From: Methanothermococcus sp. SCGC AD-155-C09
GTDB lineage: Archaea > AGJL01 > Methanococci > Methanococcales > Methanococcaceae
DNA: 34,755 nucleotides
Direction: 5' to 3'
Assembly: GCA_019561555.1 (NCBI GenBank)
Contig: JAHEQB010000099.1
Span: 1 to 34,755, forward strand
Shown one piece after another: positions 452-30,398 of this stretch. Positions within the stretch are counted from its first letter, which is position 1; every line of letters begins with the position of its first letter. Position numbers and translations under genes: made by a program. Below the pieces are notes generated by a model. The model saw only the letters and a program-made list of their open reading frames with translations. It ran no database searches and was not told where the DNA came from.

Positions 452-1861
452 TTATTTTATCCCAAGGTTTTCCTTAATTGCCTCATATAGATTAAAACAT
501 AAAAATTCAATTTCATCCTCAGTAATTGTTAGGGGGGGAACTATTATTATTGTATTAAATATGGGTCTCATATAAATACCCCTTTTTAATAGGTTTTCTG
601 CAACTCTGTAGGCTACCTTGTCCCTTGGGGGATAGGATTCCTTATTATTTTTGTTCTTTACCAATTCTATACCTATCATAAAACCCCTTTTTCTAATATC
701 TCCCACATGTTCCAATTCCTTTAATCTATCAAGGGACCTATGGAGTAGTTCTATTTTTTTGCCCATTTTTTTAAAGACTTCATCCCCTTCAAGTATATCT
801 AAGGTAGCAATTGCCGAAGTACATAGTAATTGATTTCCTGTATAGGTATGTCCATGGAAAAACTGTCTATATTCCTCAAAATCCCCCAAGAATTGGTTGT
901 AGATCTCCTCCCTTACCATAGTAAGGGCAAGGGGTAAATACCCTCCAGTTATTCCCTTTCCAATAGTAATTATATCTGGTTTAGATATTTTCTTTAATTT
1001 TTCATTATCTGAAAATAGATATTTTCCAAGTCTTGCAAAGGTTGCAACTTCATCAAGTATAAGTAAAATACCTTCCTCCTTGGATTTTCTTGCTACTTCC
1101 TCTATGTAATTATTGGGATAGGGTATCATCCCTGCAGAGCCCATTACCCCTCCCTCCAATATTATACAGAATAACTCATCTCTATGTTTCTCTATGAGAT
1201 TCAACATATCCTCTAAGCAATCCATACTACATCCCCTTTCCATTCTTTCATCAGTATTCTTAAAGTCATGGCCATATTTACATCTATAGCAATAGGGGGC
1301 ATTTCCATAGTATCCCTTAAAGAGTAGAGGTTTAAATATTCCATGGAAGGTCTCGCTACCTCCAACACTCATGGCTCCTATGGTATCCCCATGATAACCC
1401 TCTTTCACAGATAGAAATTTTGTTCTCTTTTTATTGCTCTCAGGATCCTTTAATTGATAGTACTCAAAGGCCATCTTAAGGGCTATCTCAACAGCCTCTG
1501 AACCATCCTCAGAGTAAAATACCTTATTTAAATGAGGAGGTGCAATTTCAACAAGTTTCTTTGCCAATAATATGGAGGGCACATTGCCACTCCCTAAAAG
1601 TGTAGAGTGGCATATTTTATCAGTTTGTCTCTTTATTTCTTCAATTATTCTTTTTTCACTATGGCCAAAGAGGTTACACCATATTGAGGATACTGCATCT
1701 AAGTATTTTTTACCATTAATATCTATTAAATAATTTCCTTCACCCCTTTCAATTATTAAATTTTTAAAGGGAGGGTTGTATTCTTTCATTTGAGTATATG
1801 GATGCCATATGTATTTTTTATCCCATTCAATAAGTTCTTTGGGAGAATAATCCTTAGTCAT
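452..1861 (-). CDS. bioA: adenosylmethionine-8-amino-7-oxononanoate aminotransferase (BioA)
   Basis: Class III aminotransferase: WHPYTQMKEY N-terminus, DGSEAVEIALKMA, GYHGDTIGAMSVGG, ILDEVATFARLGK, ITIGKGITGGYLPLA, FHGHTYTGNQL. Confidence 0.93.
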   Translation of the reverse strand: MTKDYSPKELIEWDKKYIWHPYTQMKEYNPPFKNLIIERGEGNYLIDINGKKYLDAVSSIWCNLFGHSEKRIIEEIKRQTDKICHSTLLGSGNVPSILLAKKLVEIAPPHLNKVFYSEDGSEAVEIALKMAFEYYQLKDPESNKKRTKFLSVKEGYHGDTIGAMSVGGSETFHGIFKPLLFKGYYGNAPYCYRCKYGHDFKNTDERMERGCSMDCLEDMLNLIEKHRDELFCIILEGGVMGSAGMIPYPNNYIEEVARKSKEEGILLILDEVATFARLGKYLFSDNEKLKKISKPDIITIGKGITGGYLPLALTMVREEIYNQFLGDFEEYRQFFHGHTYTGNQLLCTSAIATLDILEGDEVFKKMGKKIELLHRSLDRLKELEHVGDIRKRGFMIGIELVKNKNNKESYPPRDKVAYRVAENLLKRGIYMRPIFNTIIIVPPLTITEDEIEFLCFNLYEAIKENLGIK

Positions 1862-16253: not shown

Positions 16254-17279
16254 TCATTTCATAAATAATCTTTTCATACTTCTTTCAATAGCGCCCTCTG
16301 CTGCTTTTTCTCCAATAATGGTTCTAAGTTCATTTACAAGGGCCTGAGAGGCTACAATTGTTGTTGGGTTTACCTTAGAATTTTTAGATTTTTCAACTAT
16401 TTTATCATCCAAATTACTTAAAATATCCAGGGCTACATCCAATCCCTTTTGATCCTCCAACAGACGCATGGATGAGGCACTCTTTATAACCAATTCCACA
16501 TTAAGGGCCTTTAAAAGGCCATAAACACCTGAAGTCTCCACAATTGAAGACATTGTTTGAAGTGTCATGGCTATCTGCTGCTCTACCATTTTCTTAGGTG
16601 CTCCTATAACTTCCCTACTAACAGTGTAATACTCTAAAACACCTGCTAATGCCACAGCAGTTGTAAGAACTCCCATATCTGAAACAGTAGGTACTACATC
16701 AATAGGAACTACATAGGCCTTCTTATTAACACTCTCTGCTAATTCAACACATTTTTTCATCTGTTCCTCAGTAATGTATTCCCTTCCATCAAGGGCAGTA
16801 CCTCCTATAACATAGTGATTATGTTGAGGAGTGCCAGGCACTGCAGCAGGCTGCATTGAGGAAATACCCACATCCTTTCTCTCCCTAAGTTCATATTTAA
16901 GACTTATATAAAGGACACTAGGGGAGGCAGTACAGGTGGTTAAAATAACCCCATCCTTTGGAAGATATGTAATTATACTATTAGCAACGCTTGTAGTGAC
17001 ACATCCAAAGGGTGTAAAAAGTATATGCAACTCTCCATGCTTTGCAGCCTCCATATCATTGTTAGTAATCTTAACTCCTGAACTTTCAACTTTTTCCCAC
17101 ATTTCATCAGTTAATTTATTTCTATCTGGTTCTGAAAGTATAACATCATGTCCTGCCTCAGCAAATTCCATTGCCATTCTACTTCCACCGTAGGGTGGCT
17201 CCCCTCCAAAAAGTTCTGGAAGTTTAAGTTTGTTAACATATAAGTTCTGATTTCCTGCTCCGTAGACTGAAACCTTCAT
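16254..17279 (-). CDS. HmdII-type methylene-H4MPT dehydrogenase ([Fe]-hydrogenase) paralog, copy 1
   Basis: MKVSVYGAGNQNLYVNKLKLPELFGGEPPYGGSRMAMEFAEAGHDV; TTCTASP Cys retained; SSMQPAAVPGTPQHNHYVIGG. Confidence 0.92.
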   Translation of the reverse strand: MKVSVYGAGNQNLYVNKLKLPELFGGEPPYGGSRMAMEFAEAGHDVILSEPDRNKLTDEMWEKVESSGVKITNNDMEAAKHGELHILFTPFGCVTTSVANSIITYLPKDGVILTTCTASPSVLYISLKYELRERKDVGISSMQPAAVPGTPQHNHYVIGGTALDGREYITEEQMKKCVELAESVNKKAYVVPIDVVPTVSDMGVLTTAVALAGVLEYYTVSREVIGAPKKMVEQQIAMTLQTMSSIVETSGVYGLLKALNVELVIKSASSMRLLEDQKGLDVALDILSNLDDKIVEKSKNSKVNPTTIVASQALVNELRTIIGEKAAEGAIERSMKRLFMK

Positions 17280-17530
17280 AAATTCACCAATGGTATCTGA
17301 TGATGGCTTACAGTATTTTATGATAGTTATATATAAATTGTATACTTCCCTTAGTATTTAATAATTACTATACGGAACTATCAATAGCATCTATCTATTT
17401 TTCTTTTATAGATTCTGAAAACTTTTAATTAAAAAATTTACTTTTATTTATTTTAATTAAAAAATAATAAAAAAAACTAAAAAAATAACTTTAAAAAAAT
17501 TTAAGAATTTATTAATTATGTATTATAATT

Positions 17531-18559
17531 CTACTCATTCATAAAGAGTTTTCTCATACTTCTTTTAATGGCTCCATCTGCTGCTCTATCCCCCATAATG
17601 ACTCTAAGTTCATTTACAAGTCTCTGAGGGGCTACAGGTGTTGTTGGGTTTACCTTGGCATTCTTAACCCTTTCCATTAATTCCTCGTCAATATTCTTTA
17701 ATCTCTCCAATGCTGCTTTTGAGGTTTTCTGATCCTCCGTAAGACATATAAATGAGGTACTCTTTCTAATCAATTCCACATCAAGGGCCTTTAAGAGGCC
17801 AGAAATTCCTGAAGTCTCCACAAGGGAGGCTAATGTTTGGAGTGCCATAAGTATATCCAATTCTATTACCTCTTCAGGGATATCCATAACCTTTCTACCA
17901 ATGGTGTAATAGTCCAATATACCTGCCAACGCCACGGCAGTTACTAAAGAGGATCCCATATTTCCAGTGGGGCATATTGCACCTATGGGAACTATATAAG
18001 TCTTCTTATTAACACTCTCTGCAAGTTGGATACACTTTTTCAATTGCTCCTCAGTAATGTAGTCCTTTCCCTCAAGAGAGGTGCCCCCTATAATATAATA
18101 AGTATGTTGAGGGGTACCGGGAATTGCAGTAGGATGTACTGAAGAGATACCAACATCACTTCTCTCCTTAAATTTATATTTGAGATAGTGATATGGGACA
18201 AGTGGGCAGATATTATAGGTAGTTAGAATTATGGCATCCTTTGGAAGATGTGGAAGTATATTCTTAATAATCTCTAGAATACGATCTCTGGGTGTAAAGA
18301 ATATATGGACCTCTCCGTGCTTAGCAGCCTCTATGTCATCGTTGGTAACTTTAACCCCAGATTCTTCAACTTTTTTCCACATTTCATCAGTTAATGCATT
18401 TCTATCTGGTTCTGAAAGTATAACATCATGTCCTGCCTGGGCAAATTCCATTGCCACCCTACTTCCCCCGTAGGGAGGTTCTCCTCCAAAAAGTTCTGGT
18501 GCTTTAATTTTGTTAATATATAGGTTCTGATTCCCTGCTCCGTAGACTGAAACCTTCAT
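17531..18559 (-). CDS. HmdII-type [Fe]-hydrogenase paralog, copy 2
   Basis: Same family as copy 1; TTYNICP instead of TTCTASP at the cofactor-ligand position. Confidence 0.92.
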   Translation of the reverse strand: MKVSVYGAGNQNLYINKIKAPELFGGEPPYGGSRVAMEFAQAGHDVILSEPDRNALTDEMWKKVEESGVKVTNDDIEAAKHGEVHIFFTPRDRILEIIKNILPHLPKDAIILTTYNICPLVPYHYLKYKFKERSDVGISSVHPTAIPGTPQHTYYIIGGTSLEGKDYITEEQLKKCIQLAESVNKKTYIVPIGAICPTGNMGSSLVTAVALAGILDYYTIGRKVMDIPEEVIELDILMALQTLASLVETSGISGLLKALDVELIRKSTSFICLTEDQKTSKAALERLKNIDEELMERVKNAKVNPTTPVAPQRLVNELRVIMGDRAADGAIKRSMRKLFMNE

Positions 18560-18810
18560 AAATTCACCAATAACACTTGATAATGACTTTTCAGTATTTT
18601 AGATGGTTATTTACTATACGTAATAACCCTTAGTATTTAATGATTACTATACAGAACTATCAATAGCCCCTATCTATTTTTTTTATAGATTTAGAAAAAC
18701 TTAATTAAAAAATATATTATTTTAATTTAATTAAAAATTAATAAAAAAATAAAATAATAATTTTAATTGTTTAAATAATTTGTTAATTGTAGTATAATTT
18801 TTATAGGTCG

Positions 18811-19836
18811 CTAATGGCTCATAAAGAGTTTTTTCATACTTCTTTTAATGGCACCATCTGCTGCTTTACCTCCAATAATAGTTCTAAGTTCATTTATAAG
18901 TGACTGGGAGGCCACAAGTGTTGTTGGATTTACCTTAGCATTTTTAGATTTTTCCAATATTCCATTATTTAGATTACTTAAAATATCCAAGGCCGCCTTT
19001 AATTCTTTCTGCTCCTCCATTAGATACATGGAGGAGGCACTATTCACTAGTAGTTCCATATCAATGGTTTTTAAAAGGCCATCTACATCTGAAGTTTCCA
19101 CAATAGAGGCCAATGTTTGAAGTGATGCAACTATCTGTTGCTTTATCATTTTTTTAGGTGCATTTATAACCTCCCTACCAACAGTGTAATAGTCTAAGAT
19201 ACCTGCCAATGCCACAGCAGTTATTAGAACTCCCATATCTGAAATAGCAGGTACTATATCAATAGGAACTACATAGGCCTTCTTATTAACACTCTCGGCT
19301 AATTCAATACATTTTTTCATCTGCTCCTTAGTAATGTACTCCTTTCCATCAAGGGCAGCGCCTCCTATAACATAGTGATTATGTTGAAGGGTACCTGGAA
19401 CTGTAGCTGGGTGCATAGATGAGATACCTATATCACCTCTCTTCTTAAGTTCAGATCTAAGGGACTCATATAAAAGTATGGGAAAAACAGTGCAAGTGGT
19501 TAGAATTACAGCATCCTTTGGTAAATATGGAAGTATGTTCTTGGCTATACTTTTAGTATGGCCATAGGGTGTAAAAAGTATATGAACTTCCCCATGCTTA
19601 GCAGATTCTATATCATCGTTAATAACTTTAACCCCAGATTCTTCAACCTTCCCCCACATTTCATCAGTTAGTTTATTTTTATCTGGTTCTGCAAGTATAA
19701 CATCATGTCCTGCCTGGGCAAACTCCATTGCCATTCTACTTCCGCCGTAGGGTGGCTCCCCTCCATAGAGTTCTGGTACTTTAAGTTTATTAATATACAA
19801 ATCTTGATTCCCTGCTCCGTAGACTGAAACTTTTAT
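18811..19836 (-). CDS. HmdII-type [Fe]-hydrogenase paralog, copy 3 (ORF extended upstream to an ATA codon at 19836)
   Basis: ORF track starts at TTG 19800. The 12 codons upstream encode the conserved IKVSVYGAGNQD preceded by GGTGAAATT, with an in-frame TAG 7 codons upstream and no ATG. Confidence 0.85.
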   Translation of the reverse strand: MKVSVYGAGNQDLYINKLKVPELYGGEPPYGGSRMAMEFAQAGHDVILAEPDKNKLTDEMWGKVEESGVKVINDDIESAKHGEVHILFTPYGHTKSIAKNILPYLPKDAVILTTCTVFPILLYESLRSELKKRGDIGISSMHPATVPGTLQHNHYVIGGAALDGKEYITKEQMKKCIELAESVNKKAYVVPIDIVPAISDMGVLITAVALAGILDYYTVGREVINAPKKMIKQQIVASLQTLASIVETSDVDGLLKTIDMELLVNSASSMYLMEEQKELKAALDILSNLNNGILEKSKNAKVNPTTLVASQSLINELRTIIGGKAADGAIKRSMKKLFMSH

Positions 19837-20144
19837 AATTTCACCCCTGAATATCTAATGGTTTTATATTGTTCAAATTATATGTAATTATATACTCCTT
19901 AAGGTATTTAATATTTACTATGATAGAACTATTAACGGTAACCATATAAAAATATATTTATTTTATAAATTCCAAAAACCTTAATTAAAAAAAATATTAC
20001 TTTAATTATAATCATAAAAATAATAACTATTAAAAAATTATTAATCTAAAAAAATAAAAAATAATTAAATAAAAATAGATAATTTAATATTTAAAAAATA
20101 CCTAAAAAAAAGTAAATGTATAAAGAGGAGTCTTGTCATTACTA

Positions 20145-21170
20145 TTACCCCATAAAGAGTTTTTTTATACTTCTTTTAATGGCACCCTCTGCAGCCTCAC
20201 CACCAATAATATTTCTAAGTTCATTTACAAGGGCCTGGGAGGCTACAAGTGTTGTTGGATTTACCTTGGCATTTTTAGATTTTTCTATTAATTTATCATT
20301 TAGATTACTTAAAATATCCAAGGCTGCCTTTAATTCTTTCTGCTCCTCCTTTAGATACATAAAGGAGGCACTCTTTATAATTAATTCCACATCAAGGGCC
20401 TTTAAAAGGCCAGGAATTCCTGAGGTCTCTACAATAGAGGCCAATGTTTGAAGTGCCATGACTACTTCCCGCTCAATTACATTTTCAGGGGATTTCATAA
20501 CTTCAGTACCAATGGTGTAATAGTCCAATATACCTGCCAACGCCACGGCAGTTACTAAAGAGGATCCCTTATTTCCAGTGGGGCATATTGCACCTATGGG
20601 AACTACATGGGCCTTTTTATTAACACTCTCTGCCAGTTGGATACATTTTTTCAATTGTTCCTTAGTAATATATTCCCTTCCCTCAAGGGAGGTGCCCCCT
20701 ATTATGTAGTAGGTATGTTGAGGAGTACCTGGGTATACACCTGGGTGCATTGAGGAAATACCAATATCACTTCTTTCCTTAAATTTATATTTGAGATGGT
20801 GATAGGGAACAACTGGGCAGATATTACATGTTGTTAGAATTATGGCATCCTTTGGAAGATGGGAAAGTATATTTTTAACAACCTCTAGGGTATAGTCAGT
20901 GGGAGTATATAGTATATGCAACTCTCCATGCTTTGCAGCCTCTATGTCATTGTTGGTGATTTTTACCCCGGATTCTTCAACCTTCTTCCACATCTCCTCA
21001 GTTAATATATTTCTATGGGGTTCTGAAAGTATTACATCATGTCCTGCCTGGGCAAACTCCATAGCCATTCTACTTCCGCCGTAGGGTGGTTCTCCACCGT
21101 AGAGTTCTGGTACTTTAAGTTTATTAATATAAAAATCTTGATTTCCTGCTCCATATATTGAAATTTTTAT
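20145..21170 (-). CDS. HmdII-type [Fe]-hydrogenase paralog, copy 4 (ORF extended upstream to an ATA codon at 21170)
   Basis: ORF track starts at internal ATG 21068. The 34 codons upstream encode the conserved IKISIYGAGNQDFYINKLKVPELYGGEPPYGGSR; GGTGAAACT precedes; in-frame TAA 4 codons upstream. Confidence 0.85.
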   Translation of the reverse strand: MKISIYGAGNQDFYINKLKVPELYGGEPPYGGSRMAMEFAQAGHDVILSEPHRNILTEEMWKKVEESGVKITNNDIEAAKHGELHILYTPTDYTLEVVKNILSHLPKDAIILTTCNICPVVPYHHLKYKFKERSDIGISSMHPGVYPGTPQHTYYIIGGTSLEGREYITKEQLKKCIQLAESVNKKAHVVPIGAICPTGNKGSSLVTAVALAGILDYYTIGTEVMKSPENVIEREVVMALQTLASIVETSGIPGLLKALDVELIIKSASFMYLKEEQKELKAALDILSNLNDKLIEKSKNAKVNPTTLVASQALVNELRNIIGGEAAEGAIKRSIKKLFMG

Positions 21171-22935: not shown

Positions 22936-24195
22936 TTATTTATTATTTTTATCTCTATTAAAATCCTCCTCTATTAAAACATCACTTAATTCTTTGGATA
23001 ATATATAATATACATTATTTCCAGAGCGCTCCTTATATATGTAGCCCATTTCATAAATATCTGATAGATGGGTTCCAATGGTGCCTGGAGAATAATTTAA
23101 AGATTTGGCAAGTTCAGTTACTGTTGATCTCCCATTAAAACTTGCCAATGCCCTAACTATCTTAGATTGGGCAGGAGTTAGATGGTTTAATATCTGATGG
23201 CCTATGCTAATACCTAATTTTTTCATGGCCATTTTTACTATGTTTTCATCTATTTCTGTCAGTCCCTTTTTTAATCCTATGGATATGGCCTCAGAACAGG
23301 TCATAATAATCTTTCTTGGAATACCATCACACTCCTCCACAATAACATCAACTGCTCCTTCAGTAAAGGGCTCATAATTTTTAGCCTTGGATATTTGGGC
23401 ATCCTTTAATCTTCTCAATATTAAATCATAGGATTCTTCCTTGGATAGGGGAGGCATGTTTATTATCTTTGGTAATCTATCCCTCATGGCAGGAGATACC
23501 TTAGTTAGATTTTCCATAAGTGTGGGAGAGCCTGCAAAAAATGTTAGAATACCATCCTCATATAAAAAGGAATGGAAAAATTGGAGTAATTCAAGACATT
23601 TCTTTTTTGCAAATTGGTCAGCCTCATCTATAAGTATTATACATAGTCTATTATCTCCCTTTACAATATTCAATAAATAATCCAAATCCCTTTCAATTCT
23701 CTCCCTGGGATAATGCACTGGGGTTTTATCTGGATGGGCATCTAACCTCCTATATATCTCAATTATTTTTTGGGAATGTTCCACATATTCAGTAGATAAT
23801 GTGCCCTCCATAGTAAATAAATTATCCTTTATAATTCCATACATAAGTTGTATTAGAAATTGTCTGGGGGTAATTTGAGAGGCCTCCAATTCAACAGTCC
23901 AATGGTTCTGCCTCTTTGCTGCATAGTATATAACATTTAAAAGGGAACTCTTCCCAATTCCCTTTGTTCCAACAATGGCAGCATTGGCCACACTACCATA
24001 CTGGGCTGCTCCAAGTATATCGGCTATCTCCATTAATTCTGTGGTTCTACCAACAAAAAATTTTGTATTGCCCCTTATTGGTTTTTCAGAGAAGGGATTC
24101 GTCTTTAACTTTAGCCTATTCATGGCTTTTTTTGTTATGGATGATGCATTTTGTATAAATTCTATAGGGTCCAACATAATATCACAGTAGTCCAT
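22936..24195 (-). CDS. Orc1/Cdc6-like AAA+ ATPase with C-terminal winged helix
   Basis: NPFSEKPIRGNTKFFVGRTTEL, Walker A GTKGIGKSSLL, Walker B LCIILIDEADQ, C-terminal HTH LTPAQSKIVRALASFNGRSTVTELAKSLNYSPGTIGTHLSDIYEMGYIYKE. Confidence 0.8.
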   Translation of the reverse strand: MDYCDIMLDPIEFIQNASSITKKAMNRLKLKTNPFSEKPIRGNTKFFVGRTTELMEIADILGAAQYGSVANAAIVGTKGIGKSSLLNVIYYAAKRQNHWTVELEASQITPRQFLIQLMYGIIKDNLFTMEGTLSTEYVEHSQKIIEIYRRLDAHPDKTPVHYPRERIERDLDYLLNIVKGDNRLCIILIDEADQFAKKKCLELLQFFHSFLYEDGILTFFAGSPTLMENLTKVSPAMRDRLPKIINMPPLSKEESYDLILRRLKDAQISKAKNYEPFTEGAVDVIVEECDGIPRKIIMTCSEAISIGLKKGLTEIDENIVKMAMKKLGISIGHQILNHLTPAQSKIVRALASFNGRSTVTELAKSLNYSPGTIGTHLSDIYEMGYIYKERSGNNVYYILSKELSDVLIEEDFNRDKNNK

Positions 24196-24250
24196 TATTA
24201 AAAACTTATTTTTATACTTTCTAATTTTTAATATATTTATATATTTTTTA

Positions 24251-24278
24251 TTCGAATAATTCGAAAACTCGAAAGTCC
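24251..24278 (+). repeat. TCGAAAAC-type tandem motif (upstream of orc1-like gene)
   Basis: TTCGAATAATTCGAAAACTCGAAAGTCC. Confidence 0.8.
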
Positions 24279-24852
24279 TACTATAATATGATTTTTAAAT
24301 ATATTTTTATTTATATATGTCAATAATTAAATAAACAACCTTATATATAATAACCGTGAATACAATATTAAAATAAAATTAAAATGTGAATATAATAATA
24401 AATAAAAAAATAATATAATCTATGGCTCCTAAATACCTATAAAATTAACTTTAATAAAATTTTAAAAAATATATAAACTATCACAGTAATAATAAAGTTT
24501 TCTTTAATTCAATTTTTAGTATATATAGTAAAATCAAAATCGTGAATCAATAATATTATATTATATCTGCTATGAATATATTAAATTATACCTATAAAAA
24601 ATTATAATTTATTTTATATATTCTTATAATTACCTATCATACCCCTAAATATAAAAATAATTTATTAAAACCAATAAAATTAATTAATCAAAAATAAAAA
24701 AGTATATATATTTGATACTTCCATTAAGATAATAACCTAAAAATAATCCTTAAATGAATCCAAGGATAAAACATATACTAAAAAACATTAGAATTGATAA
24801 AATAATAAAATAAAATATAAATAAGAAATAAATAAAAAATTAAGGTGAAATA

Positions 24853-25371
24853 ATGGAGAACATAATAAATGAAAGTATATCTACCCCTATAAGAAAATTA
24901 ATTTTACATTATGTGTTAATTCGTGGCACAACATATCCCAAACAAATAACCGAAAACCTGAAAATCTCTAAGGGGCTTCCTTCTCAATTTTTAAGGCTTT
25001 GCACTGCTTTAAACCTAACAAAGCGAGAGAGAAATGGCCATAAAGTAATGTACTCCATGACTAAAAAAGGAATTGCAATTTTAAAGAGATTATGCCCTGA
25101 AATATTTGACCTTAGTTTTTCGAGTCTTTTCGAAAGTTTATCGAAAAAGAAATTTGATACTAAGTATTACCCAGTGAATAAAATAGGTTTTGAAATAAAG
25201 AAATACGTGGATAACTTTGGTGGAATCACATTTAAATTCTATGATGATAGTGGAGAAGAAATATCCTCAGTCTTTAGGTCTGCTGTAGGAACATGGTGGT
25301 GTGTAGCCTGTCAATCCAATGATTGTAGGCATATTAATTATCTGAAAAAATATTACCTTAATCCCAAATAG
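24853..25371 (+). CDS. HTH-domain protein with C-terminal Cys/His (SWIM-like) motif
   Basis: N-terminal winged-helix-like segment (YPKQITENLKISKGLPSQFLRLCTALNLTKRERNGHKVMYSMTKKG); C-terminal WWCVACQSNDCRHINYL. Confidence 0.65.
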   Translation: MENIINESISTPIRKLILHYVLIRGTTYPKQITENLKISKGLPSQFLRLCTALNLTKRERNGHKVMYSMTKKGIAILKRLCPEIFDLSFSSLFESLSKKKFDTKYYPVNKIGFEIKKYVDNFGGITFKFYDDSGEEISSVFRSAVGTWWCVACQSNDCRHINYLKKYYLNPK

Positions 25372-25733
25372 TAATATTTCGGGTTTTCGGGTGTGCACTG
25401 TATAAGGGGAGGGGAAAGTATATAAAAAATTTAATATTCCAAAATATTTTTGAGAAATAATTCCTTGGAAAATGGTTTATTTTTTGATATATCATAGTAT
25501 ATAAGTTTATATTATTAATACACTGATAACTGCATTTAATTTATGTATATTTTAATTATTTATTTTGTATTTTTTAAATAGTAGAAAAATATACATTATT
25601 TTAATAAAATACTTATTTATATTATTTATTATACATATTATGTGCAAAAATATAATATCAATATAATTTCTTAGGAATAATTTTTTTTATTGTACTTAAG
25701 GGATACTTCTTTTTTCTGTACATATATATCACA

Positions 25734-25748
25734 CTCGAAAACTCGAAA
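25734..25748 (+). repeat. TCGAAAAC-type tandem motif
   Basis: CTCGAAAACTCGAAA. Confidence 0.8.
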
Positions 25749-25818
25749 CACTTTTAAGAAATCATTTAAATACCTTTTTTCTTAAAATATTAACCTGAAA
25801 TATTATATTAAAAACAGT

Positions 25819-25831
25819 GTTGTGCCACAAC
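25819..25831. promoter_or_regulatory. perfect palindrome GTTGTG-C-CACAAC, operator-like
   Basis: 6-bp arms around a single central base, in a noncoding convergent intergenic region. Confidence 0.5.
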
Positions 25832-25894
25832 TATGAACAAAACATAAATGGTAATAAAATAGATTATTTTTTTAATATTCGGCAAAAAACAATA

Positions 25895-26956
25895 CTATCC
25901 GAAAACTCGAAAGTTATCTATAATGAGGTTGTTGTAATATATCCCATACACACTGGCATGGAAACTCCTATAGGGCAGGGTTTTAAAAATATCTAATAAA
26001 TCACTATTATCAGTATTTATTTTAAATATTATATTTTTTCCAATTCTTCTCTTTTTTAATATTTTTTTATCTGCCAATTCACTTAGATAGGCATATATTG
26101 TGGGCAATTTTAAATTTATATGTTTTTCAATATCATTTATGGTAAATTTTTTTAATTTCCAGGCTATATTTATTATTTTTTTATACTTATTTGGGAGTAT
26201 TAAGGGAATTACCTTTGACCAGGGTATTTTTAATTCCCTTAGGTTCCTTACCTCTCTTTTAATGCGGGGGAGAATTATATCCAGTATGTTAAGATTTCCC
26301 TGGGATATTTTTAATAGATATTTTGCTACCTTTGTGGATAGAATACATCCCTTTTTTCTTGCGTAGTATTTTATTATTGCAATATTGTTTATTTTCGAGT
26401 TTTCGAATATCCTTTTGGCATATTCTGTGGATTCAATAGGACATCTTAATACTATTGTAATGCCATTTTTATTTAACCTATCTACAAATTTTTTAAACCC
26501 ATTAATATGATTCCACTTATTTATGTTGTGTAAATCAAGTACAAGAATTGGTTTCAATACCTTTAATAAAGTTATTGTTTTATTAATGGCATTTTTAAAG
26601 TTCCACTGATAAATATCATTAAAAAAGTCCCCTATAAATCTATACCATGCCTTTTTTGCTCTATGGTAGTTTTTATTAATATTTTTAAAATAGACTTTGT
26701 CTAAATACTTAAATATATTTAGGTTTAGATCTTTATCCCTCTCTTTAAATAATACCATTTTGTCCTTTATTGTATATAATAACCTACTAATGGTTTTTTT
26801 TAATGAGGGTGTTGCCAATATCCTTAAAATAGGTATGCCATCCACTAAATTAATCTCCCCACTTTCATTTAACTCAAGAGTATTTTCTCTATCTGTTGGC
26901 ATAATCCATAAATCCCCTGTTAGAAAGTCCTTAGCATTTTTGGCAATTATATCCAT
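25895..26956 (-). CDS. divergent winged-helix protein, possibly a degenerate Orc/STAND-type ATPase
   Basis: 353 aa Lys/Asn-rich; ILVLDLHN Walker-B-like strand, no recognisable Walker A; C-terminal HTH FTINDIEKHINLKLPTIYAYLSELADKKILKKRRIGKNIIFKI. Confidence 0.5.
   Translation of the reverse strand: MDIIAKNAKDFLTGDLWIMPTDRENTLELNESGEINLVDGIPILRILATPSLKKTISRLLYTIKDKMVLFKERDKDLNLNIFKYLDKVYFKNINKNYHRAKKAWYRFIGDFFNDIYQWNFKNAINKTITLLKVLKPILVLDLHNINKWNHINGFKKFVDRLNKNGITIVLRCPIESTEYAKRIFENSKINNIAIIKYYARKKGCILSTKVAKYLLKISQGNLNILDIILPRIKREVRNLRELKIPWSKVIPLILPNKYKKIINIAWKLKKFTINDIEKHINLKLPTIYAYLSELADKKILKKRRIGKNIIFKINTDNSDLLDIFKTLPYRSFHASVYGIYYNNLIIDNFRVFG
25899..25914 (+). repeat. TCGAAAAC-type tandem motif
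   Basis: CCGAAAACTCGAAAGT; overlaps the 3' end of the 25895..26956 ORF. Confidence 0.75.
26391..26412 (-). repeat. TCGAAAAC-type tandem motif (inverted, inside CDS)
   Basis: ATTTTCGAGTTTTCGAATATCC. Confidence 0.7.
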
Positions 26957-27030
26957 AATTCTTCCCTTTATGTAAATTTTTATTTTGGATTATTTCTTTA
27001 AAAATAAAATAATAAAATTTATATTAATTA

Positions 27031-27270
27031 TAGTCAAGGACATAATAATTTAAACTTATTATGGGTATAGCATCTATACTTAAAGGGTTTCCCCTAAACA
27101 TCCAGTGCTTAGGGGTGTAGGAAGGAGGATATCGGCAGAACTTTTGCTTTTTTAGTATTTATTTTCTTTTATATTTTCTTTATGTCTTTAAGTAAATATT
27201 GATATTGCTTTTTTTTAAATACTTAATTTTTCCCTATATCTTAGGATTTAGGTTATTTTAATTTTTATTT
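27031..27270 (+). repeat. dispersed intergenic repeat, copy R6
   Basis: TAGTCAAGGACATAATAATTTAAACTTATTATGGGTATAGCATCTATACTTAAAGGGTTTCCCCTAAACATCCAGTGCTTAGGGGTGTAG, near-identical to R7. Confidence 0.9.
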
Positions 27271-27707: not shown

Positions 27708-28066
27708 TGATGGGAACTAGGGTAATTTATTTTATTTTTTATTATTTAATTATTTTATATTTTATTTTTTTTAATCATTTTATAATCTTTAATTCCATAT
27801 TTCTTAGGTATGTCTTAAGTATAATTAGCCTTATTTTATAATCTCTTACTAATTCCACTACTTTTTAAAAACTTCCCATCTATCTATGGATATTTTAAAA
27901 GTAAAGTCTTTTAAGAACTATTATGTCCTTTTATAGATCTCTATTTTTTATTTAATTTTTTAGATGTTATATTATTTTATAGGCCGCTGCCTTTTTAAAC
28001 TCCTTTTCTTCCTATTTATTTTTTTATTTAGTTTTATCTCCTTGGTATATATTTTTTTAAAAATTG

Positions 28067-28270
28067 TAGTCAAGGACATAATAATTTAAACTTATTATGG
28101 ATATAGCATCCATACTTAAAGGGTTTCCTCCACACATCCAGTGCTTAGGGGTGTAGAGGGGAGGAAGGTAAGTTATGGGATTTCTACTTTTTAAGTATTT
28201 ACTTTCTTTTATTTCTTTAAATATTTTATTTTTCCATATATCTTAGGAATTATATTATTAATTTTATTTA
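28067..28270 (+). repeat. dispersed intergenic repeat, copy R7
   Basis: Near-identical over its first ~90 nt to R6, with further similarity in the T-rich tail (TTTTTAAGTATTTA, TATATCTTAGGA). Confidence 0.9.
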
Positions 28271-28352: not shown

Positions 28353-30398
28353 TTAAATTAACCTATATTTTCCATTTCTTGGTTCGTCTATATCCCCTCT
28401 TTTAAGTAATTTCTTAATGATATTTTCTACCCTTTCTTCATCCATCCCCTTCTTTTTAGCCTCTTCAACAATATCCATAAATAAAACTAAATTATCTCCA
28501 TTCTTTTTTTCAGATAGATTTTTTATAATATTGTAAATCTCCTTCATATCATCTCGATCTTTACTGGATTCCCCTACTATTTTCCCAACATCTATCATCC
28601 CTGTTTCAGGATCATAGGCAATTTCCCTTAAGGATTCCATTATTATATTAATGGCCTCCTGGGCATCTTCAGCCTCTACAATATCCTTTAATTTTACCTT
28701 AGCATGGGCCTCAGCAAGTCTAATTGCAGCCTCAAGTTGTCTTGCAGTTACCTGTATGGAACTCTTTCTCATATTGACATAGTACTCCACTAAAATATCC
28801 TCGGCCTCCCTGGATATAGTTGGTTTCTTAGTTTTACTATATATTATGTATTTTGTAATGAAATCTTCGTCTATTTCCACTCCATATATGTTGGTTTTTT
28901 TAGTCTTTTTATTTTCCTTATCCCTTTTAAGGTAATTCCTATGGATATCAATAATATGCCTTGCTATCTCTGTATCTTTGGCCCTATTCACTTCATCCTT
29001 TATGGGAAAGATTATATCAAACCTACTTAACATGGGAGCAGGTATATTTATCTGTTCAGGTATGGATTCATTTGGATCAAATTTACCCCATTTGGGATTA
29101 CATGCAGCCAATATTGCACACTCTGCTGGAAGTTTAGTGTTTATTCCTCCCTTATTGATATGTATAGTCTGACTCTCCATGGCCTCCAATACATAACTTT
29201 GTAAATCCTTATTTACAGTTAATTCATCAATACAGGCTGTGCCCTTATTGGCTTTAACCAATAAACCTGGTTTTATTACCCAAGTATCATCCCCAATCTC
29301 AGTCCTTTCCCTTACAACAGCGGCTGTTAATCCTACCCCTGATGCAGTAGTTACAGAGCCATACATGTTTCCTGGAAGTTCTGCAATTTTTCTTAGCATA
29401 ACACTCTTTCCTATACCTGGATCAGTAATTAAAAGAATATGACTATCTGCCCTTTTATTTCCCTTTTTAACTCCCTTTATCTGTTGTAAAAATATGGCCT
29501 TTTTTATGGTATTATATCCCTTTATTTCCTTTATAAGTTCATTGGCCAATATATTCAATACATCAGGATGTTTAGATACCTTTTCAATATTTTTAATATC
29601 CTCTTCAGTAAGTTCCATCTCCAACTTATCCTCTATTACTTGACAATCTATTCCCCTTATATATATGTCATATATGGGCAATTTTTTATTACTACGGTAT
29701 TTAATTGGCACCCCTGTTATTCTTACCCTTCCACAAAATACCCCTGGTGAATTTTCCAAGAATACTGTTATGTATTTTGGAGGCTCTTCAGGATCATCCA
29801 TTAGATCCAATGGTTGCTGGATTTTTAACTCTTGAAAGTCAATATATTCTGATATATTTTCGTTAATTTCCATTGAACCATTACAATCTTCTTTACCACA
29901 GGGCATTGATTCTGGAATGGATTCATATGGATTATCAATAGTCTTTTTTATGGAGTATCCACATTTATTACATACAAATACTGCTTTCTTTAATATGGAC
30001 TTTATTTTAGTGGCCAATACTACTATGCCTTCAAATTCAATGAGTTTTCCTAAGGTATTACTTTTAATATCCTTAATTGTTAAAGTTCTGTTTCCATATC
30101 TTTTAAATATATGGGGCAAATTTTTAATGGTGATAATACATTTACTATCTTCACTCTTTAATATTCTGTAGGCTTTGTTGTAGGCCTCATTTAATATTTC
30201 CAATCCATCGTAGGGATTATTATGGAGATATTCTATAAATTCCACTAATCCATAGTTATATAGTTTTTCTAAATCAATGGCTATTCTTTCCCTTTCAGAG
30301 ATAATATCCTCACTGTGGAAATTCCTAATATAATTTGCAATAGGGTTTATAAAATCTTCTCTATCTTTCTTTTTTATTTCTATTGATTCCTCATCCAT
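28353..30398 (-). CDS. mcm: MCM replicative helicase
   Basis: Zn finger CNKCGY...CGKEDC, Walker A LLITDPGIGKSVMLRKIA, Walker B-like ACIDELTVNK, SRFDIIFPI arginine finger, C-terminal wH. Confidence 0.93.
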   Translation of the reverse strand: MDEESIEIKKKDREDFINPIANYIRNFHSEDIISERERIAIDLEKLYNYGLVEFIEYLHNNPYDGLEILNEAYNKAYRILKSEDSKCIITIKNLPHIFKRYGNRTLTIKDIKSNTLGKLIEFEGIVVLATKIKSILKKAVFVCNKCGYSIKKTIDNPYESIPESMPCGKEDCNGSMEINENISEYIDFQELKIQQPLDLMDDPEEPPKYITVFLENSPGVFCGRVRITGVPIKYRSNKKLPIYDIYIRGIDCQVIEDKLEMELTEEDIKNIEKVSKHPDVLNILANELIKEIKGYNTIKKAIFLQQIKGVKKGNKRADSHILLITDPGIGKSVMLRKIAELPGNMYGSVTTASGVGLTAAVVRERTEIGDDTWVIKPGLLVKANKGTACIDELTVNKDLQSYVLEAMESQTIHINKGGINTKLPAECAILAACNPKWGKFDPNESIPEQINIPAPMLSRFDIIFPIKDEVNRAKDTEIARHIIDIHRNYLKRDKENKKTKKTNIYGVEIDEDFITKYIIYSKTKKPTISREAEDILVEYYVNMRKSSIQVTARQLEAAIRLAEAHAKVKLKDIVEAEDAQEAINIIMESLREIAYDPETGMIDVGKIVGESSKDRDDMKEIYNIIKNLSEKKNGDNLVLFMDIVEEAKKKGMDEERVENIIKKLLKRGDIDEPRNGKYRLI

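Follow-up and report, generated by a model that had tools for sequence, protein, structure and literature searches.

Conserved box arrays beside an orc1-like gene at a candidate chromosomal replication origin of Methanococcales

Methanococcales were once described as having no recognisable Orc1/Cdc6 protein or origin (PMC3984812) and later as carrying highly divergent orc genes (PMC5333045). Composition analysis for an origin was inconclusive in M. maripaludis, and an oriC prediction for M. jannaschii (Zhang and Zhang 2004, PMID 15197606) is cited in PMC5333045 and PMC4164010. Does the chromosome of these archaea start its replication beside the orc1-like gene, and which proteins would recognise the site? 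We addressed this question in a 34,755-bp stretch of DNA from Methanothermococcus sp. SCGC AD-155-C09 (hereafter the window), for which a preliminary description had proposed that CG-containing motifs near an Orc1/Cdc6-like ATPase gene are origin recognition boxes of a non-canonical initiator.

Gene order around two intergenic regions

The orc1-like gene (22936..24195, minus strand) encodes a 419-aa AAA+ ATPase and is separated by 657 bp of intergenic DNA (region A, 24196..24852) from the gene for a 172-aa winged-helix protein (24853..25371, plus strand). A second intergenic stretch (region B, 25372..25894) leads to the gene for a 353-aa protein (25895..26956, minus strand), beyond which lies mcm, coding for the replicative helicase (28353..30398, minus strand; Pfam MCM, 1.7e-74). 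The ATPase gene, an intergenic region of ~650 nt and mcm had all been placed near the boxes before, and these gene calls hold. Region B is flanked by the 3' ends of two convergent genes, a setting absent from the preliminary description, and is therefore not a promoter of its neighbours.

The order of the orc1-like, 172-aa and 353-aa genes is common to five Methanococcales genera. Of 36 Methanococcales genomes, 27 have one copy of the ATPase gene, with 70–90% identity, and the 172-aa and 353-aa genes were each found in 26. The boxes described below have replication genes as neighbours, namely the orc1-like gene and mcm, with synteny throughout the order. In those loci of family f1 whose neighbourhood was read, mcm adjoins the 353-aa gene, and in family relatives the gap between the two is within about 100 bp. 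In the window, the intergenic stretch from the 353-aa gene to mcm measures ~1.4 kb and is bounded by the two copies of a 112-bp direct repeat (27018–27129 and 28054–28165; 89% identical). Elsewhere in the window (16254–21068) are four tandem Hmd-like genes, paralogs of methylene-H4MPT dehydrogenase with mutual identities of 64–77%.

CG boxes and the inverted pair of region B

The first CG box, an exact copy of TCGAAAACTCGAAA, lies 66 bp upstream of the orc1-like start (24261..24274, plus strand); an alignment of 17 loci places it beside a TATA-like element in relatives. Within the 172-aa gene, TCGAAAAGACTCGAAA forms a box with a 10-bp period (25116..25138, minus strand). Region B holds an inverted pair, here called the dyad, whose left arm is CCGAAAACCCGAAA (25377..25390, minus strand) and whose right arm, 358 bp away, is again exact TCGAAAACTCGAAA (25735..25748, plus strand). 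A third site, CCGAAAACTCGAAA, with one mismatch, follows 164 bp past the right arm at the 3' end of the 353-aa gene (25899..25912, plus strand). Every tandem CG motif listed in the preliminary description was recovered at its position, including the in-gene form at 25116–25150. With up to three mismatches allowed, the window contains 12 CG-box matches against 2.3 expected, and none of 100 shuffles reached 12. One further exact TCGAAAACTCGAAA match, within the 353-aa gene (26393..26406, minus strand), is where it had been reported, but its status as a box is doubtful: it codes for FENSK and, because among the compared loci only G023 has a matching exact site in this gene, it may be a coding coincidence.

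Across genomes the boxes are strongly local. Exact matches to YCGAAAANYCGAAA number five in the whole 1.73 Mb genome and all five fall in the cluster, so that the motif is far from being equally frequent genome-wide; only one other place in the genome (C101:3125) comes within one mismatch of TCGAAAACTCGAAA. In 16 relatives, each represented by one long contig, 85 CG-box matches were counted, 43 of them no more than 2.5 kb from the 172-aa gene, where 0.28 would be expected. No CG-box dyad was found in viral contigs. Within the same genus, a CG box also occurs between the gene for 5S rRNA and that for RNase P RNA (L005, L028, L029 and L030, at 1501–1514), upstream of polD DP2 in L028 and L030. 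This copy is present even in G027, a genome without the orc1-like locus, and in G024 it lies about 11.7 kb from the 172-aa gene. Further matches in Methanocaldococcus (L010, L011, L016, L009, L013 and L017, near 1501) fall within coding regions, for example of an aminotransferase-like gene, and are probably protein-driven.

The spacing of the boxes is conserved together with their neighbours. Region B reads, throughout the order, as a box, ~360 bp, an inverted box, ~165 bp and a further box. The inverted pair is spaced by 353–364 bp in all 17 aligned loci outside Methanococcus, and the third box stands 163–168 bp beyond the right arm in most of them. With positions counted from the 172-aa gene start, CG boxes occupy about −590 (plus strand), +524/532 (minus), +880–896 (plus) and +1045–1063 (plus), with a few bases' play between families. 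The one Methanococcus locus read has a degraded right arm and a degraded third box. The expectation that the motif would be conserved near orthologs is thus borne out, with fixed spacing beside the same genes. The dyad arms carry TATACATACATGCAA beside the box, and a second inverted pair, AATTATCRCAAAA / TTGTGATAATT, is nested within the first. The arms extend to 34 bp in Methanocaldococcaceae, with 28–32 identities; in the window's species, extension outside the boxes is weak (11/20, P 0.09). Between the arms, the core of region B has a GC content of 11.6% in the window and is poorly conserved in sequence. Many intergenic stretches of the genome are equally unstable, and the AT-richness of the cores is not exceptional against the rest of the genome.

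Long complementary arms some 360 bp apart, kept in all aligned loci except Methanococcus, might also be read as the processing stem of a structured RNA with pairing ends. A search of the region against Rfam returned no RNA family, the core is poorly conserved, and the same box has further copies: a third one in direct orientation, one close to the orc1-like promoter and one within a gene, so that we regard this explanation as very improbable.

The in-gene box shows conservation at the nucleotide level. Almost all relatives retain its TCGAAAA pair, and at synonymous positions they do so with rare codons: Ser TCG (usage 1.6–5.8%) and Phe TTC before G (4–11%). In G023, where the region B boxes are CCGAAAACCCGAAA, the in-gene box is altered likewise, at the cost of an E to G and an S to G substitution. 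Box sequences drift in concert: the within-genome box distance was 0.81 compared with 1.22 after shuffling (0 of 5000 shuffles), a shuffle that leaves shared ancestry in.

The TGAATC array of region A and strand composition

Region A contains a second family of boxes, the TGAATC array, which is absent from the preliminary description. Five TGAAT boxes, all on the minus strand and at fixed positions in the alignment of 17 loci, surround a conserved AT-rich core. In the window they form two pairs with boxes 30 bp apart (24357–24361 with 24387–24391, and 24543–24547 with 24573–24577) and a fifth box (24755..24759) ~98 bp upstream of the 172-aa gene, which in relatives stands at about −106. Relative to the start of that gene, the order-wide positions are −507, −477, −321, −290 and −106, again with a few bases' play between families. 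Pairs of TGAATC boxes at the array spacing gave 16 matches in the 36 genomes, and all 16 were in region A.

In G004, which we take to be M. jannaschii, the 172-aa and orc1-like orthologs are separated by positions 694540–695211. The origin that Zhang and Zhang predicted for this species in 2004 is said to span 694540–695226. From the agreement of the two intervals we conclude that region A is the published candidate, and the predicted M. jannaschii oriC and region A are the same locus. Unlike that prediction, which covers the region A interval, our analysis adds the CG-box dyad in region B and a geometry that holds across the order.

The origin recognition box (ORB) given for Methanococcaceae by Ori-Finder 2 / DoriC, TT[TA][GT]ATTCA[TC][GA]AT[AT]T[AT]T[AT] (PMC4164010), is fitted by the TGAATC array with 0–2 mismatches in relatives and more weakly in the window. 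Compared with that entry, the array has five fixed boxes, arranged as two ~30-bp pairs plus one, and the CG box is an unrelated motif. The resemblance raises the possibility that region A alone, with its TGAATC boxes, is the origin and that the CG boxes are sites for a regulator of cluster expression, perhaps the 172-aa protein, which resembles ArsR regulators. The orc1-like promoter does have a CG box next to its TATA-like element, and another box precedes RNase P RNA and polD DP2. Three of the boxes, however, are found where convergent genes meet, either between them or at their ends, with any gene start more than 400 bp away, and this placing, with rigid spacing and inverted arms, is unusual for operators. 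We therefore hold this explanation to be a lesser possibility, though one to be taken seriously.

Strand composition was examined through third-position GC skew corrected for coding strand and tested at the gene level, since a block-level test is too coarse. The preliminary description had named cumulative GC skew as a check, and the outcome was positive in two relatives, one of them partly sampled, and negative in the sampled part of a third. In G023 (99% of a 1,569,500-bp chromosome), cumulative corrected GC3 skew reaches its minimum at 1,201,834, within the locus, and its maximum near the antipode. The locus has a z of 7.4, which none of 300 block shuffles equalled, and the leading and lagging skews of 0.122 and 0.045 converge towards the opposite pole. 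Block bootstrap limits are 1.005–1.230 Mb and the fit moves to 1.071 Mb when ±25 kb are left out; given these wide limits and the shifted fit, the skew backs the region and does not pinpoint the site. In the sampled part (0–780 kb) of G024, which we take to be M. okinawensis, the minimum is at 724,194, in the 353-aa gene. In M. jannaschii, of which about 25% was sampled, there was no skew minimum at the locus (z −0.88).

Candidate binding proteins and the proposed origin

The 419-aa ATPase matches Pfam AAA_16 (4.6e-10) and, at residues 341–388, HTH_5 (7e-10). It has Walker motifs A and B (GTKGIGKSS and LCIILIDEAD) and a C-terminal winged helix of ArsR-like type. Its match to the orc1/cdc6 family TIGR02928 is partial, at 22.4 bits, below the curated cut-off of 181.3, which is reached in no Methanococcales genome. 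The protein is probably the ortholog of MJ0774. Its structure model is poor (pLDDT 54). On plasmids only remote matches of 23% were found, and a scan with the two most conserved peptides, which excludes close relatives only, detected none outside Methanococcales.

The 172-aa protein combines a winged helix resembling that of ArsR with a conserved C-terminal WWCxxCxxxxCxH motif; its profile weakly matches the Sulfolobus centromere-binding protein AspA (E 0.12). The 353-aa protein is fast-evolving and is predicted to combine a degenerate ORC-like AAA+ fold, with a degenerate Walker A, and a winged helix. Its AlphaFold2 model (pLDDT 85.6) finds its best PDB fold matches in Orc1/ORC proteins (A. 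pernix Orc1, E 3.2e-4), at a TM-score of only 0.2, and its TubR matches are restricted to the winged-helix part. When profiles of the 353-aa and 419-aa proteins were compared, the winged helix alone aligned (probability 32%).

The dyad might instead be a parS- or centromere-like site for partition or chromosome organisation that adjoins the origin. Such sites cluster near origins, and the AspA and TubR matches point in the same direction. These matches are of a generic winged-helix kind, however, the neighbouring genes code for replication proteins, and no ParA-like gene beside the boxes was recognised among the proteins scanned. We consider it unlikely that the dyad is such a site.

Altogether, the box geometry, the genome-specific clustering, the replication-gene neighbours and the GC-skew minimum in two relatives argue that the chromosomal replication origin occupies the ~2 kb that run from where the orc1-like gene starts (24196) to about 25912, where the 353-aa gene ends; we put the probability at about 0.75. 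The locus resembles a canonical archaeal oriC in its inverted repeated boxes and initiator-like gene and, less clearly, in the AT-rich stretch between the boxes and the skew minimum of the two relatives. Unlike a canonical oriC, in which Orc1/Cdc6 acts on ORBs of the TCCA..GAAAC type, it has an ATPase below the Orc1/Cdc6 family cut-off, and the canonical ORB TCCA[CG]T[TG]GAAA..GGGGT had no match in the window with up to three mismatches allowed.

The earlier proposal is thus well supported for the region; that the Orc1-like protein reads the CG boxes is one possibility among several. A box of the published type (TTTGATTCAYRAT), differing from the CG box, sits in the intergenic region of the orc1-like gene, and in G003 the ATPase gene has moved 190 kb away while both box arrays remain beside the 172-aa and 353-aa genes. 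All three winged-helix proteins are candidates for binding the CG boxes. We infer that proteins encoded at the locus bind the boxes. In region A, the TGAATC array would probably be bound by the Orc1-like ATPase, both being nearly invariant. The CG boxes change together in sequence within each lineage, and their probable binders are the 172-aa and/or 353-aa winged-helix proteins, which evolve faster. In region B, proteins bound to the two inverted arms would bend or open the AT-rich core that separates these arms, where MCM would be loaded, and the orc1-like gene would be autoregulated through the CG box next to its TATA-like promoter element.

More tentatively, the locus may be an archaeal origin in two parts with unrelated box systems. 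The TGAATC array would be read by an active Orc1-like ATPase, and the CG-box dyad by the 172-aa winged-helix protein, by an ORC-like protein that is degenerate and dead as an ATPase, or by both. Such an arrangement would amount to an ORC-like multi-subunit initiator that arose in Methanococcales and was lost together with the origin in some members of the same genus. The same-genus genomes G022, G025–G029, G031 and G032 (completeness up to 99%; one is a single contig of 1.5 Mb) gave no match to the orc1-like, 172-aa or 353-aa genes and have no exact CG box, and a search for mcm in four of them found only a paralog of ~48% identity. These genomes may use another initiator or replicate independently of an origin.

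The CG-box dyad, the in-gene box and the order-wide geometry appear to be unreported: they were not found in the searchable literature, a scope that leaves out most subscription papers, and the box motif strings matched none in papers. The outcome is a precise order-wide map of cis elements together with three candidate binding proteins. The 2-kb fragment is directly testable in the tractable M. maripaludis or its relatives, and origin fragments of this kind would be of use in vectors for Methanococcales methanogens.
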